From an uncultured Reyranella sp. (GTDB lineage: Bacteria > Pseudomonadota > Alphaproteobacteria > Reyranellales > Reyranellaceae): a stretch of DNA of 58,241 nt. The position numbers and the translations under genes are program-made. Shown here piece by piece: positions 19,261 to 24,285 of the stretch (position 1 is the stretch's first letter; every line of letters begins with the position of its first letter). The notes beneath the pieces were generated by a model. It made no database searches, was not told the DNA's origin, and saw nothing but the letters and a program-made list of their open reading frames with translations. Location: NCBI GenBank assembly GCA_937919085.1, contig CALFRN010000127.1, forward strand, positions 1 through 58,241, given 5' to 3'.

Positions 19261-19369
19261 TGCCTGCTCCCGTTCAATTGAAGGGTCACGCTAGCACAAG
19301 CTCGTTTGCTTGACAGGTGGCCCGGCAACCAGTATCCGCGCCTTCTTCGGGCCCTAAGGCGGTTGAGTG

Positions 19370-19445
19370 GGGGCTGTAGCTCAGCTGGGAGAGCGCCTCG
19401 TTCGCAATGAGGAGGTCAGGGGTTCGATCCCCCTCAGCTCCACCA
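19370..19445 (+). tRNA. tRNA-Ala (anticodon CGC)
   Basis: The 76-base gene folds as a full cloverleaf: acceptor GGGGCTG/CAGCTCC, D-stem GCTC/GAGC, anticodon stem CCTCG/TGAGG around the loop TTCGCAA (anticodon CGC), T-loop TTCGATC and an encoded CCA. It decodes GCG, a frequent alanine codon in this GC-rich genome. Confidence 0.96.
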
Positions 19446-19483
19446 ACCGCCCCGAACCTTTCGTGCCCGCCGCATTTGCTGGC

Positions 19484-20179
19484 ATGTCACGCGCCATCAC
19501 GGCACAATTGCAGTCGATGCGCAGACGCGAACAGCCCACGCCATCCGAACTCGGCCTCTCGGTCGAGGAGGGCCGCGTTCTCGCCGGCTTGCGCACGCCG
19601 CAGCGCGTGCAGGAGTTCGTCGCCGGGTTGAGTGCCAATTTCGAACACGACGGCGATACGCTGCGCTCCGTTCGCGGCGTGTTGCGCCACCGCCAGGCGC
19701 ATTGCATCGAAGCCGCCTTCGTCGCCGCCTGCGCACTGTGGCTGCGTGGCGATCCGCCGCTGCTCATGGACCTGACCGCGAAGGGCGATTCCGACCATGT
19801 CGTCGCCCTGTTCCGCCGCAACGGCTGCTGGGGAGCGATCTCCAAGAGCAACCATGCCTGGCTGCGCTGGCGCGATCCCGTCTATCGCACGCTGCGCGAA
19901 CTCGCGATGTCGTACTTCCACGAATATTTCAACAACGGCCGCAAGACGCTGCGGACCTATTCGGCATCGGTCGATCTGCGCCGCTTCGCCCCCGGTGCAT
20001 GGATCACCAATGAAGAGAACTGCTGGGATGTCGGCGCGGCCGTCGACGATGCACGTCACTACCGGCTGATCTCGCCAGCCCAGATGCGATGGCTGATGCC
20101 GCCTGACGCCACCGTGTTGCGCGCCGACAACCTGGTGCAATATGAGAGCCGCGATCGCAGGACGGCCCGCAAATACTGA
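19484..20179 (+). CDS. Uncharacterised protein, possibly transglutaminase/NlpC-like
   Basis: A 231-residue protein with no signal peptide or membrane segment. A cysteine in [16 protein letters not shown] heads a helix, a [17 protein letters not shown] strand block follows about 40 residues later, and [11 protein letters not shown] comes next. A Cys on a helix followed by His/Asp on strands recalls a transglutaminase-like fold, but I cannot confirm it. The ATG at 19484 was chosen because the frame upstream runs through tRNA-Ala. The next gene starts 11 bases downstream. Confidence 0.65.
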
Positions 20180-20190
20180 GGAGCGCCGCA

Positions 20191-20844
20191 ATGAAACGAG
20201 CCCTCGCGGCCCTGCTGTCTATCCTGCTCGGTGGATTCCCGGCAGCTGCACAAATTCCCGCCGAGTGGCAGGCCGCCGCCCAGGCGGTGATCGGTGATCT
20301 GGAACGCGATACGCCGCAAGCCGCCAAACCGTGGGGGCCGGAGCTGACCCAAGGCTGGGCCCTGGCGCGCGCCTGGCGCAAGCACAACAACGGCAACATC
20401 GAGATCATCCTCGCCGAGTATCTCACCTTCGTCGCATTGTGCCGCCGTGGTTGTGGCGGCAGCACGATCGAGGGTCAGGGCTATGTCGCCGTCGCCGGCC
20501 AGGTGAAGGCATTGCGCTCCCAGAACGGCGGGCCCTATGGGTTGGCATCGAATGCCCACGCCTGGCTGTCCGGCCTTCCAGATCCCAGTGGCGCCGCCCA
20601 GAAGAACGCCGCGCTGTGGGCCAAGGACCTCGACGTGCCGGCCGCCGACTTCGCCACCGGCAACATCTATGCGCTGGCCTGGCTGCTGGCGCGGAACCGG
20701 CCGACGACTGCCGAGCAAGCCGAGACCTTCGCCCGGTTCGCAATCCTGGTGCAGGGCAAGGCCTGGATCGGCAGCCGTTGCATCGACATCACGAAAGTGG
20801 CGACGGTGCTCGACGCACCGCCGCGGATCGACGTCTGCACGTAA
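20191..20844 (+). CDS. Exported protein of unknown function
   Basis: A 217-residue protein with a clear Sec signal peptide (MKRALAALLSILLGGFPAAAQ). The mature part contains a paired-cysteine stretch, LCRRGCGGS, and two late cysteines (GSRCID and a C-terminal VCT), suggesting disulfides in the periplasm. I do not recognise the family. It is 11 bases after the preceding gene and has a GAGG ribosome-binding site, so the two are probably cotranscribed. A strong hairpin follows its stop codon. Confidence 0.65.
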   Translation: MKRALAALLSILLGGFPAAAQIPAEWQAAAQAVIGDLERDTPQAAKPWGPELTQGWALARAWRKHNNGNIEIILAEYLTFVALCRRGCGGSTIEGQGYVAVAGQVKALRSQNGGPYGLASNAHAWLSGLPDPSGAAQKNAALWAKDLDVPAADFATGNIYALAWLLARNRPTTAEQAETFARFAILVQGKAWIGSRCIDITKVATVLDAPPRIDVCT

Positions 20845-20903: not shown

Positions 20904-21971
20904 CTACTCCGCCGCGATCGCGTCCTGAACGAACTTCTTCTTGTCGAAGTCGTCGGCGACCTTGAGGTCGTTGCCGATGAGTTCGTTGACGTCGATCTTG
21001 GCGTATTCCATCACGCCCATATCACCCAGCGCCTTCTGCACCTTGGGTCCGAACAGGCCGATCTCCTTGAGGATCGGCACGATGCGGGTGAACAGCCGCG
21101 ACCGGAACGACTGCATGGCGCCGGAGTTGTAGGCGTACTCCATCAGCTTATCGACCGGCAGGCCCGAGCGCATCCAGACCTCGGCCTGGTTGAAACGATC
21201 ACGCATGAAATAGAGTGCCTCGACCACGAATTCCTCGCGCTCGGCACGTTCGGCATCGGAGAGGTGCGGATAGTATTCGCGCAATGCCATGCGGCCGAAC
21301 GTGACGTGACGCGCCTCGTCCTGCATCACGTAGGCGTTGACCGCGCCGGCGAGATTGTTCTTGGCCGTGTCGCGGATGCGCTGGAAGGCGGCGAGAGCCA
21401 GTCCTTCGATCAGGACCTGCATGCCGAGGTAGGTCATGTCCCAGCGGCGGTCGGTCAGCGTCTGCTCGAGCAGCTGCTGGAGCGACGGCGTGATCGGGTA
21501 GGCGCACTTGAACTTCTCATGGATCAGCCGCTTGTAGCTCTCGACGTGGCGGGCCTCGTCCATCACCTGCGTGGCGGCATAGAACTTGGCGTTCATGTCG
21601 GGCACGGTATTGACGATCTTGGCGGTGGCGATCAGCGCGCCCTGCTCGCCGTGCATGAACTGGCAGATCGAATGACACTGCAGATTGAAGCGCAGCCAGT
21701 CCTTCTCCTTGTCGGTCATCTTTTCCCAGAAGGGCGAGCCGTAGATCGGGATGCTTTCGTCGGCCATGCCCATCGGGTTGCCTTCGAACAGCTCCTGGCT
21801 CCAGTCGATGCGGGTGGAGGTGTCCCACTGCTGCTGCTTGCCCTTCTCGTAGAGGTTCAGCAGGTCGGACGAGCCCTCATCGTATTCCCAGTTGAAGGAA
21901 ATCTCGGTGGCGCCGTCGAATTTCCAGCCTGTCGTTTCGACCGGCAATGCATAAATCTTTTGTGTGCTCAT
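20904..21971 (-). CDS. Ferritin-like diiron protein A (R2/oxygenase-like)
   Basis: A 355-residue soluble protein with two E...ExxH diiron half-sites: Glu109 (HGEQGAL), Glu139 and His142 (MDEARHVESY), Glu189 (VLIEGLALAAF), Glu219 and His222 (QDEARHVTFG). All six ligands needed for a dinuclear iron site are present. Databases would probably label it ribonucleotide reductase beta, yet no alpha subunit is nearby and the next gene is a flavin/[2Fe-2S] reductase, which favours an oxygenase. Tyr146 is four residues after His142, where class I R2 proteins keep their radical tyrosine. Start: ATG 21971 with an AAGGGA site. A colinear paralogue lies at 23152-24219. Confidence 0.8.
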   Translation of the reverse strand: MSTQKIYALPVETTGWKFDGATEISFNWEYDEGSSDLLNLYEKGKQQQWDTSTRIDWSQELFEGNPMGMADESIPIYGSPFWEKMTDKEKDWLRFNLQCHSICQFMHGEQGALIATAKIVNTVPDMNAKFYAATQVMDEARHVESYKRLIHEKFKCAYPITPSLQQLLEQTLTDRRWDMTYLGMQVLIEGLALAAFQRIRDTAKNNLAGAVNAYVMQDEARHVTFGRMALREYYPHLSDAERAEREEFVVEALYFMRDRFNQAEVWMRSGLPVDKLMEYAYNSGAMQSFRSRLFTRIVPILKEIGLFGPKVQKALGDMGVMEYAKIDVNELIGNDLKVADDFDKKKFVQDAIAAE

Positions 21972-22016
21972 GTGTCCCTTGCCTCCTGACGCTGAAAGCG
22001 GTCCCATCCCGGGGGC

Positions 22017-22040
22017 CGGAGCGGTAAACATGACGCTCCG
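22017..22040. promoter_or_regulatory. Inverted repeat in the diiron A / reductase divergent region
   Basis: CGGAGCG and CGCTCCG arms (22017-22023 and 22034-22040) flank ten bases in the 149-base gap between the divergent diiron A and reductase genes. It is a possible operator or leader hairpin. I could not recognise convincing promoter boxes for either gene. Confidence 0.3.
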
Positions 22041-22120
22041 TTCATTTTTCTAGCCGGAAGCTATCACAAGCTGTTAGACGAGTCCCGCAGAGTTTTCAGG
22101 GTACGTGAGCACGGATTTCC

Positions 22121-23143
22121 ATGGCCTATCATCAGCTACGCATCGCCAAGATCGTTCAGGAGACGGCCGACGCGCGCTCCTACGTTTTCGAGGTTCCGGC
22201 CGATCTGGCCGAGAAATTTCGCTACCGGGCGGGCCAGTTTCTGACCTTCCTCGTGCCCCATTCGGCCGGGGCCTTCAACCGCTGCTACTCGCTGTCCAGC
22301 GCCCCGGAGTCCGACGGCCTTCCCAAGGTTACGGTCAAACGGGTCACCGGCGGCAAGGGCTCGAACTGGTTCCATGATACCCTCAAGGAGGGCGTCTCGC
22401 TGGAGGTGCTGCCGCCGGCCGGCCGCTTCGTGCTCAGCGAGGGCACCGCACCTCTGCTCCTGTTCGGCGGCGGCAGCGGCATTACGCCGATGATGTCGCT
22501 GATCAAGAGCGCGCTCAAAGGCGGAACACGGCGCGTGCGCCTGTTCTACGCCAACCGTGACAAGGCCTCGATCATCTTCGACGCCGAGTTCGAGGCACTG
22601 ATGAAGGCCAACCCCGGCCGCCTCGAAGTGGTCCACCATCTCGATGCGGTCCAGGGCCTGACCAGACCGGAGGAAATCGTCGCGGCATTGAAAGGCTTCG
22701 AAGAAGCCGAGGCCTATCTCTGTGGCCCCGGCGCCTTCATGACTCTGGTCGAGACCACGCTGCTGGCCGCCGGCATGCTGCGCGAGCGCGTGCGCATCGA
22801 GCGCTTCGAGGCCTCGGGCAACGATGCCGTCCCGATGGAACCCGCCGCCGAAGGCGACGTCGTTCCCGCCGAGATCACGATCCATATCGAGGGCAAGTCC
22901 CACAAGGTGCCCTACCAGAAGGGCCAGACCATCCTTGTGGCGGCGCGCGCCGCCGGCCTCAATCCGCTCTCGTCGTGCGAGGAGGGCTTTTGCGCCTCAT
23001 GCGCTGCCAAGTGCATCAAAGGCAAGGTCGTTCTGGCAAAGAACGACATCTATACGGCCGACGATCTCGCCAACAACTGGATCCTCACCTGCCAGGGCCA
23101 CTGCTTCGGCCCCGAGGTCGAGATCACCTACGACGTGGTCTGA
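22121..23143 (+). CDS. PaaE-type ferredoxin-NADP reductase (FAD, NAD(P) and [2Fe-2S] domains)
   Basis: A 340-residue electron-transfer protein. The FAD domain carries RCYSLSS (residues 54-60, the RxYS flavin motif), the NAD(P) domain has GGGSGITPMMS (116-126) and YLCGPGAFM (199-207), and a plant-type [2Fe-2S] domain ends the protein with Cys286, Cys291, Cys294 and Cys324. The order FAD-NAD-ferredoxin is that of PaaE, the reductase of phenylacetyl-CoA epoxidase, and of similar reductases that feed diiron oxygenases. It lies between two diiron genes, divergent from the first and ending eight bases short of the second, and is their obvious electron donor. Confidence 0.9.
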   Translation: MAYHQLRIAKIVQETADARSYVFEVPADLAEKFRYRAGQFLTFLVPHSAGAFNRCYSLSSAPESDGLPKVTVKRVTGGKGSNWFHDTLKEGVSLEVLPPAGRFVLSEGTAPLLLFGGGSGITPMMSLIKSALKGGTRRVRLFYANRDKASIIFDAEFEALMKANPGRLEVVHHLDAVQGLTRPEEIVAALKGFEEAEAYLCGPGAFMTLVETTLLAAGMLRERVRIERFEASGNDAVPMEPAAEGDVVPAEITIHIEGKSHKVPYQKGQTILVAARAAGLNPLSSCEEGFCASCAAKCIKGKVVLAKNDIYTADDLANNWILTCQGHCFGPEVEITYDVV

Positions 23144-23151
23144 CCACCCGC

Positions 23152-24219
23152 TCACTCCGCCGCGATCGCCTTTTCGACGAACATCTTCTTGTCGAACTCC
23201 TCGGCCACCTTGCCGTCGTTGGCGAGCTGTTCGGTGACGTTGATGTCGGCATATTCCATCACGCCCATCTCGCCGAAGGCCTTGCGCACGCGCGGTCCCC
23301 ACAGGCCGATGTCCTTCACGGTCGGCACGACCCGGCTGAACAGCCGGCCGCGGAAGGAGTTCATCTGCTTGGAATTGTAGTGGATGTCGTCGAGCGTCTT
23401 GGCCGGCAGTCCGAGCCGCTCCCACACTTCCGACTGGTTGAAGCGGTCGCGCATGAAGTAGAGCGCTTCAACTACGAACTCCTCGCGCTCGTCGCGCTCG
23501 GCGTCGGAGAGCTGCGGGTAGTATTCGCGCAACGCCAGCCGGCCAAAGGACACATGGCGCGCCTCGTCCTGCATGACATAGGCATTGACGGCGCCGGCCA
23601 GCGTATTGCCCGCCTTGTCGCGGATCGACTGGAAGGCGGCGAGCGCCAGCCCCTCGATCAGCACCTGCATGCCGAGATAAGTCATGTCCCAGCGCCGGTC
23701 GGTCAGGGTCTGTTCGAGCAGGGTCTTCAGCGCCGGGTTGATCGGATAGGCGACCTCGAACTTCTCGTGCAGCAGGCGCTTGTAGGCCTCGACATGGCGC
23801 GCCTCGTCCATCACCTGGGTGGCGGCATAGAACTTGGCGTTCATGTCGGGAACCGTGCCCACGATCTTGGCCGTCGCGATCAGCGCGCCCTGCTCGCCAT
23901 GCATGAACTGGGAGATCGAGTTGGCCTGAAGATGAAGACGCAGCCACGCCTTCTCCTTGTCGGTCATCTTGTTCCAGTAGTCTGTGCCGTAGATCGAGAT
24001 CGCCTCGTCCTTGAGCTCCATCGGATTGTCAGGATTGAGTTCGAGCGACCAGTCGAGCCGCGTGGAGGCGTCCCACTGCTGCTGCTTGCCCTTCTCGTAG
24101 AGCTCGAGCAGCGGCGCCGAACCGTCGTCGTATTCCCAATTGAACTGGAGTTCGGTCGCACCATCGAACTTCCACTGGGTCAGTTCGACGGGCAGAGCGT
24201 AGATGCGCTGCGTGCTCAT
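23152..24219 (-). CDS. Ferritin-like diiron protein B (paralogue of A)
   Basis: A 355-residue protein colinear with diiron protein A without visible gaps; by eye roughly seven residues in ten match. The diiron ligands fall at identical positions (Glu109, Glu139, His142, Glu189, Glu219, His222), as does Tyr146. Differences cluster in residues 33-103 and near the C-terminus, while both end in AIAAE. Conservation of every ligand in both copies argues that each binds iron. It lies convergent to the reductase gene and 76 bases downstream of a response-regulator gene on the same strand, with a terminator-like hairpin between. Confidence 0.8.
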   Translation of the reverse strand: MSTQRIYALPVELTQWKFDGATELQFNWEYDDGSAPLLELYEKGKQQQWDASTRLDWSLELNPDNPMELKDEAISIYGTDYWNKMTDKEKAWLRLHLQANSISQFMHGEQGALIATAKIVGTVPDMNAKFYAATQVMDEARHVEAYKRLLHEKFEVAYPINPALKTLLEQTLTDRRWDMTYLGMQVLIEGLALAAFQSIRDKAGNTLAGAVNAYVMQDEARHVSFGRLALREYYPQLSDAERDEREEFVVEALYFMRDRFNQSEVWERLGLPAKTLDDIHYNSKQMNSFRGRLFSRVVPTVKDIGLWGPRVRKAFGEMGVMEYADINVTEQLANDGKVAEEFDKKMFVEKAIAAE

Positions 24220-24260: not shown

Positions 24261-24285
24261 AAAAATGACGGATAAGTCATCTTTT
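24261..24285. terminator. Terminator-like hairpin after the response-regulator gene
   Basis: AAAAATGAC and GTCATCTTTT pair around GATAA; read on the minus strand the stem ends in a run of T residues, directly after the response-regulator stop codon. It probably separates that gene from diiron gene B. Confidence 0.45.

Follow-up and report, generated by a model that had tools for sequence, protein, structure and literature searches.

A 58,241-nucleotide stretch of DNA from an uncultured Reyranella sp. (contig CALFRN010000127.1, referred to as the window), part of a 4.9-Mb genome, carries two genes for diiron proteins, A and B, on either side of a gene for a PaaE-class NAD(P)H reductase, R. The balance of evidence leans toward A (and B) being catalytic subunits of soluble six-ligand ferritin-like diiron oxygenases (FDOs) and R being their reductase, with A and R as the core pair and B as a co-regulated paralog. 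A (positions 20904-21971, minus strand) and B (23152-24219, minus strand) each encode 355 residues, and R (22121-23143, plus strand) encodes 340. Open reading frames (ORFs), alignment, and Pfam searches confirm what an original prediction had read from the DNA alone: two 355-residue diiron proteins, with six ligands at positions 109, 139, 142, 189, 219, and 222, around a PaaE-type reductase. That prediction also called the two diiron proteins colinear, a loose description: A and B share the minus strand and R lies on the opposite one, divergent from A across 149 bp and convergent with B across 8 bp, so A, R, and B do not form one operon.

In FDO enzymes served by PaaE-class reductases, NAD(P)H reduces FAD, electrons move on through a [2Fe-2S] cluster to diiron(III), and the resulting diiron(II) activates O2. 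At this locus, hydride from NAD(P)H would be transferred to the FAD of R, and single electrons would travel through its [2Fe-2S] cluster to reduce diiron(III) to diiron(II) in A or B. The diiron(II) site would then bind O2 and form a peroxo intermediate that may oxidize some small organic molecule at a C-H or C=C bond. A single divergent promoter region would drive both A and R. B appears to be an old paralog that the majority of genomes searched have retained and that shares the palindromic element of the A-R region in most relatives; it probably acts on a related substrate or under another condition. The A-R pair unites a catalytic component with the protein that likely supplies its electrons, making the reaction of an uncharacterized FDO branch testable with two purified proteins.

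Conservation of the gene pair

The arrangement was surveyed in 56 genomes of the order (at least 90% complete, all from one family and 48 from the window's own genus). A/B-type genes are present in 56/56 and R in 55/56. An FDO gene stands next to an FNR/[2Fe-2S] gene, as in a DnfAB-like pair, in 52 of the 56: A is within 1 kb of R, always divergent, with a gap of 119-248 bp (median 157). The exceptions are G310, where the R match begins at the contig start; G317, which is locus L035 judging by identical coordinates, where A begins 150 bp from R and runs into the contig end; G312, which has no R and whose contig stops ∼0.8 kb past B; and G289, where A and R are on different contigs. B is convergent with R on the same contig, within 6 kb, in 41 genomes (gap 13-3772 bp), with intervening genes at some loci, e.g. 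for a DUF1275 or adenosine-deaminase-like protein. These frequencies, together with the same divergent arrangement in one genome outside the order (G044), support the pairing of A with R.

For this survey the only criterion separating A from B was identity to B, with 81% as the dividing line. Both genes occur in 47/56 genomes, A alone in seven, and B alone in two, the latter both being contig-end cases. Because all seven A-only genomes have R, A plus R looks like the minimal unit.

Outside the order, ten of 289 genomes sampled from the class have homologs of at least 56% identity; four of these belong to the order and six do not. Among the six, only G044 has an R ortholog (57%), divergent from a diiron gene across a 60-bp gap, along with a second diiron gene that has no R nearby. 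In G197, G082, and G093 the sole R match, at 33-38%, lies beside a true paaA, and G067 and G187 have no R match at E≤1e-25. The G067 homolog (L098) contains an in-frame stop codon near its N-terminus and is either a pseudogene or an assembly error. Across 397 genomes sampled from the phylum, three match better than 1e-120 (G000, G066, and G587) and seven more give 36-40% matches at E≤1e-60. The A-R pairing is fixed in one family and found once outside it, and is no rule for either gene; its presence in G044 suggests that it arose more than once.

The diiron proteins

Over their full length A and B align without gaps at 77% amino acid identity, which makes the earlier description of near-identical subunits too strong. 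Their nucleotide identity is 77% overall and 60% at third positions. The closest named relatives come from Reyranella metagenome-assembled genomes (98%). Both proteins carry E109, E139, H142, E189, E219, and H222, and these six positions are invariant in 63/63 close homologs (A and B of the window plus 61 of 105 distinct full-length proteins collected) and in 33/33 rows of a wider set. The Asp residues before the second and fourth Glu are also kept (D138 and D218). The AurF model of Pfam (PF11583) scores 64.4 bits for A and 67.4 for B, over its gathering score of 29.6, and for both proteins every NCBIfam model stays far below its cut-off. An alternative start, at 22031, would extend A to 375 residues; the 355-residue start is preferred because it has a GGAGG Shine-Dalgarno site and because the upstream ATG overlaps the conserved palindrome described below.

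A single-sequence search of the PDB (best E 0.021) found no close relative among solved structures. A profile of 33 relatives placed R2lox (homolog II) first at 1.3e-8 and aldehyde deformylating oxygenases (ADOs) at ∼1e-7, with AurF only at 0.049. An AlphaFold2 (AF2) model built from 63 sequences (pLDDT 77.7, pTM 0.79) places the ligands on four long helices, with E109 in 87-122, E139 and H142 in 126-153, E189 in 182-202, and E219 and H222 in 207-231. Searching with this model, Foldseek matched CmlI, AurF, PaaAC, R2lox, and ADO chains with scores that are low yet significant, six of them at E≤0.001. VIA-align, covering Foldseek's best 1000 chains, ranked AurF first (Z 19.8, 285 residues aligned, 15% identity), with R2, R2lox, and CmlI ∼1-2 Z units lower. 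A and B thus show the FDO hallmarks, six ligands in the order E, ExxH, E, ExxH on a predicted four-helix bundle with a putative metal site. Their proposed nearness to AurF-like proteins or acyl-ACP desaturases holds for AurF at the level of Pfam and fold; the seventh His of the N-oxygenases is absent, R2lox and ADOs outrank AurF in the profile search, and acyl-ACP desaturases gave no Pfam match at E≤1.

Several named families were considered for A and B and rejected. With ribonucleotide reductase (RNR) R2 (PF00268), A scores 28.1 and B 24.5 bits, under the gathering score of 33.6, and a true R2 lies elsewhere in the same genome (C272, 260.9 bits). A and B are not ribonucleotide reductases, as the original prediction had held. 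It had also expected automatic annotation to call them RNR beta; AurF is the family over its cut-off and Ribonuc_red_sm falls under, and annotated plasmid homologs carry the names “ferritin-like domain-containing protein” or “diiron oxygenase.” The same prediction noted no RNR alpha gene in the window, an absence at which no search was aimed. The R2lox model NF006200 gives 19.0 and 24.0 bits against a curated 194, and that for bacterial multicomponent monooxygenases (PF02332) gives 13.8 and 17.2, under 24.4. No Pfam desaturase model matched at E≤1, a range in which HMMER filters drop many matches above 0.1. For phenylacetyl-CoA epoxidase, R scores 214.4 bits with the PaaE model TIGR02160, below its cut-off of 420.8, and the best match to the PaaA model in the genome reaches 83.2 bits against 280, so no bona fide paaA was found there.

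Two further families were judged by their motifs. The accessible text of one report gives QExxH and HxxDExxH as motifs of the diiron halogenases (PMC12101540); A and B have DEARH and VMQDEARH, which sets aside a CylC-type dimetal halogenase. In the available portions of three reports (PMC13061610, PMC9478400, and PMC12101540), the FDO N-oxygenases are distinguished by a seventh ligand, supplied by the His that precedes the fourth Glu by four residues. At this position the close homologs have Val in 63/63 (V215 in A) and the wider set has Val, Ile, or Ala in 33/33, unlike the seven-ligand AurF, CmlI, DnfA, and Dob3. With neither the seventh His nor the halogenase motifs, A and B are expected to be neither N-oxygenases nor halogenases, despite the Pfam name. 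The AurF label could therefore mislead annotators toward p-aminobenzoate N-oxygenase.

The same genome encodes a third AurF-family protein (C248, L102:584-1558; 40.5 bits, over the cut-off), whose gene adjoins an apparent RND efflux gene by eye. A more distant diiron family at ∼30% identity includes L103:5408-6328 (C250) of this genome and L117-L123. Four aligned members have a DEAFHHKFG-type motif, and the family is often multicopy in alphaproteobacterial genomes.

Divergence of A and B

Phylogenetic analysis separates the paralogs, with support of 99/95 for the B clade and 92/98 for the A clade, or 100/100 when a second copy at locus L068 is included. At L068, R, A, and this second copy lie side by side, and the copy branches with the A clade. 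The tree has 66 rows from a chosen subset of loci and several long outgroup branches; L098, the partial A of L090, and proteins shorter than 290 residues were left out. A comparison of 33 B-type with 30 A-type rows, assigned to the two types by identity, shows 28 positions where each type has its own residue fixed at ≥85%. They include A99C, N100H, and S103C on the first-ligand helix and S224T near the last ligand. Retention of intact ligands in both paralogs favors divided roles for A and B.

The reductase

R exceeds the Pfam cut-offs for FAD_binding_6, NAD_binding_1, and Fer2, and carries the motifs RCYS, GGGSGITP, and CEEGFCASC. FAD, NAD, and C-terminal plant-type [2Fe-2S] domains follow in that order, as in the PaaE/FNR-[2Fe-2S] class. 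R is the sole match to itself at E≤1e-25 in its own genome. A single-sequence AF2 model of R was unusable (pLDDT 44.4).

Homologs of R at 41-48% identity occur in five genomes of the class sample that have no close diiron homolog. An R homolog in G071 (L141:2594-3604; 47-48%) lies near genes for a BetI-type TetR protein and a nitronate monooxygenase-like protein, with no diiron gene nearby.

A shared palindromic element

A palindromic, operator-like element, TGACGCTCCGTTCA, lies between A and R at 22031-22044, with no strand assigned; it reads TGAACGGAGCGTCA in the sense of A and is the only exact match in the window. Extraction of 64 A-R intergenic regions gave 62 distinct ones, and 61 of these agree with TGAACGNNGCGTCA in 11-12 of its 12 defined bases. 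The remaining site (7 of 12) is unconvincing and was kept in the position weight matrix (PWM) built from the 62. This PWM was run on 53 B upstream regions of relatives, leaving out incomplete and duplicate ones, and on 683 controls, the upstream regions of other genes at the same loci. It scores 37/53 B regions above the 99th percentile of the controls (7.8) and 16/53 not, and 36 of the 37 sites end 42-49 nt before the start codon. Because of shared ancestry the 53 regions do not count as independent, and the controls have common ancestry too; the gene duplication may itself have carried the element along. An earlier, cruder regular-expression scan, superseded by the PWM, had matched 31/55 A and 13/55 B upstream regions.

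The shape of the palindrome, together with a TetR gene divergent from a Nonomuraea homolog, prompts the guess that a putative TetR-type repressor binds there. A second inverted repeat, GCTATCACAAGCTGTTAG, lies at 22060-22077 with no strand assigned. It appears conserved from a by-eye reading of the intergenic alignment. In relatives it has the form CTAGCA-N5-TGCTAG between the palindrome and R, and it is possibly a second regulator site for R.

A strict palindrome search of seven genomes placed four sites at A-R (G000, G299, G331, and G338), two at B (G280 and G331), and 20 of 26 elsewhere, several inside genes. A wide regulon was rejected, as no gene recurred among those 20 when judged from ORF starts without clustering.

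Alternative explanations

Several findings weigh against R as the dedicated partner of A and B. Five of the six outside-order class genomes with homologs of at least 56% lack an R ortholog, and G587 has a 56% homolog with no R within the 13 kb fetched. The original prediction had named genomes routinely carrying the diiron genes without the reductase as evidence that would refute it; the association it proposed is conserved in relatives within the order, and such genomes were found outside. The 56 order genomes are not independent, coming from one family and, in 48 cases, one genus. Four neighborhoods of the 41-48% R homologs contain no diiron gene. As for the DNA element, the window's own copy before B, TGACTTATCCGTCA (24266-24279, minus strand, 46 nt before the B start), is degenerate and fails the PWM threshold, and the strict search that returned 26 sites returned 11 with a reversed control pattern. 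At the level of fold, Foldseek gives modest TM-scores, 0.37-0.57 when normalized by query length, and the lead of AurF over R2 and R2lox is ∼1 Z unit, a near tie in which rank order is not decisive.

Some of these points would fit R being a general reductase for Rieske oxygenases, presumably of the KshB or DcaB type, that neighbors the diiron genes by chance, with A and B drawing on another donor. The genome has 12 Rieske matches, one or more perhaps respiratory. Among R relatives at ∼40% identity, some adjoin ring-hydroxylating (Rieske) dioxygenase genes on a Delftia plasmid, and others belong to apparent steroid-ring degradation clusters, together with genes for BphC-like proteins, flavin reductases, and hydrolases. 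Close A/B homologs elsewhere do without R, and a Rhodococcus homolog adjoins the ferredoxin gene fdxA. Against it stand the divergent A-R pairs in 52/56 genomes and in G044 and a palindrome common to B in most relatives, and this explanation is judged unlikely. An R2lox-like or R2-like oxidase, needing no dedicated reductase in turnover, would agree with R2lox leading the PDB profile search and with Z scores of ∼18 to R2 and R2lox. The scores below the Pfam RNR and NCBIfam R2lox cut-offs, the separate true R2, and the conserved pairing with R make it very improbable.

Activity on amines or hydroxylamine, as in the N-oxygenases AurF, CmlI, and DnfA, is suggested by the Pfam assignment, by AurF and CmlI being among the best structural matches, and by the FNR/[2Fe-2S] gene that neighbors DnfA. 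Replacement of the seventh-ligand His throughout both homolog sets speaks against it, and of the explanations considered it is given the least weight. The heterodimer raised by the original prediction, if obligate, would account for the 47/56 genomes with both genes and for the upstream element that both share in relatives. It is very unlikely given that 7/56 genomes have A-type genes alone, all with R, that each protein has a complete ligand set, and that A and B lie at separate sites in the one-contig genome G066. Pairing of A with R as catalytic subunit and reductase, with B as a co-regulated paralog, remains the preferred reading.

Substrate hints

The substrate may be an acyl-CoA or another acyl thioester, a weak and doubtful guess from the neighbors of some homologs. 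Enoyl-CoA hydratase genes lie beside the homologs in G197 and G082, an acyl-CoA dehydrogenase gene beside that in G187, and an SDR gene beside that in G093. A Burkholderia homolog neighbors AMP-binding and KAS III-like genes, the KAS III-like one narrowly missing its cut-off (23.2 vs 24), and a Streptomyces homolog sits in an AMP-binding/carrier-protein cluster. Against this guess, acyl-thioester genes adjoin some homologs only, and others lie beside genes for a TRAP solute-binding protein, an ABC transporter, or a hydantoinase. Amidohydro_2 and thiolase-like genes lie beside A at L069 (7935-11721), a locus of the order, and at L146 (5924-9802) Amidohydro_2 and acyl-CoA dehydrogenase genes lie beside a 39% homolog. 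The recurrence of Amidohydro_2 genes beside diiron genes in two lineages is a possible pathway lead.

A broader proposal, offered tentatively and with the balance somewhat against it, is that A and B form a distinct FDO subfamily, with neither the N-oxygenase His nor the halogenase Gln and His, that has its own reductase and operator and performs an undescribed oxidation, perhaps on an acyl thioester, in all sampled Reyranella-family genomes; B would be co-regulated with altered specificity.

Neighboring genes

Beyond B lie genes for a response regulator and GTP cyclohydrolase II, and a RidA-like protein is also among the near neighbors scanned. Beyond A, two adjacent plus-strand genes (19367-20179 and 20191-20844) encode proteins of 270 and 217 residues with no Pfam match. 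Of 86 gene sets, 47 nonetheless contain the cluster of the first and 30 that of the second. The Cys...His pattern of the 270-residue protein recalls what we take to be transglutaminase/papain-like folds.

Comparison with known systems

Searches of open-license PMC papers showed no paper on these proteins among the matches listed, and none on Reyranella together with diiron; papers on CylC distribution (PMC8406957) and on a membrane desaturase (PMC13304129) gave no further clue. R2lox and class I RNR R2 share the ferritin-like fold with A and B, and R2lox is their best PDB profile match; A and B fall under the curated cut-offs of both. PaaABCDE is likewise a diiron oxygenase fed by a PaaE-class reductase, and PaaAC chains are among the Foldseek matches of the A/B model, but R is far below the PaaE cut-off and the genome has no over-cut-off PaaA. 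The reductases of Rieske oxygenases are homologous to R at ∼40% identity, and in the stretches examined their neighbors are Rieske and ring-cleavage genes, not diiron genes. The CylC/NocO halogenases have a ferritin-like diiron fold in common with A and B and differ in their QExxH and HxxDExxH motifs; NocO acts on an acyl chain bound to acyl carrier protein, according to the accessible text (PMC12101540).

AurF and CmlI, of PF11583, are similar at the level of family and fold, as A and B exceed the Pfam cut-off, find their best structural match there, and keep the Asp before the second and fourth Glu. They differ by the missing seventh His and by an identity of 15% in the structural alignment. 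Ligand spacing can be compared with two N-oxygenases from the available portions of their reports: 109-139-142-189-219-222 in A and B, 101-137-140-198-229-232 in Dob3 (PMC13061610), and 88-123-126-182-213-216 in DnfA (PMC9478400).

The nearest precedent for the gene pair is DnfA/DnfB of Alcaligenes (Dirammox), where an AurF-type diiron gene likewise lies beside a gene for an FNR-like FAD/NAD(P)-[2Fe-2S] reductase (PMC9478400 and PMC9136411, in the parts available). In these accounts the assays of DnfA used NADH and free FAD, and electron shuttling by DnfB is the authors' suggestion. Three His and four carboxylates serve as ligands in DnfA, whereas A and B lack the extra His. A glutamine amidotransferase gene follows in the dnf cluster as described there, whereas the neighbors scanned in the window are the two proteins without Pfam matches, the response regulator, GTP cyclohydrolase II, and the RidA-like protein. 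The original prediction's term “undescribed oxygenase system” is therefore too strong for the architecture, which has its precedent in DnfA-DnfB (PMC9478400).

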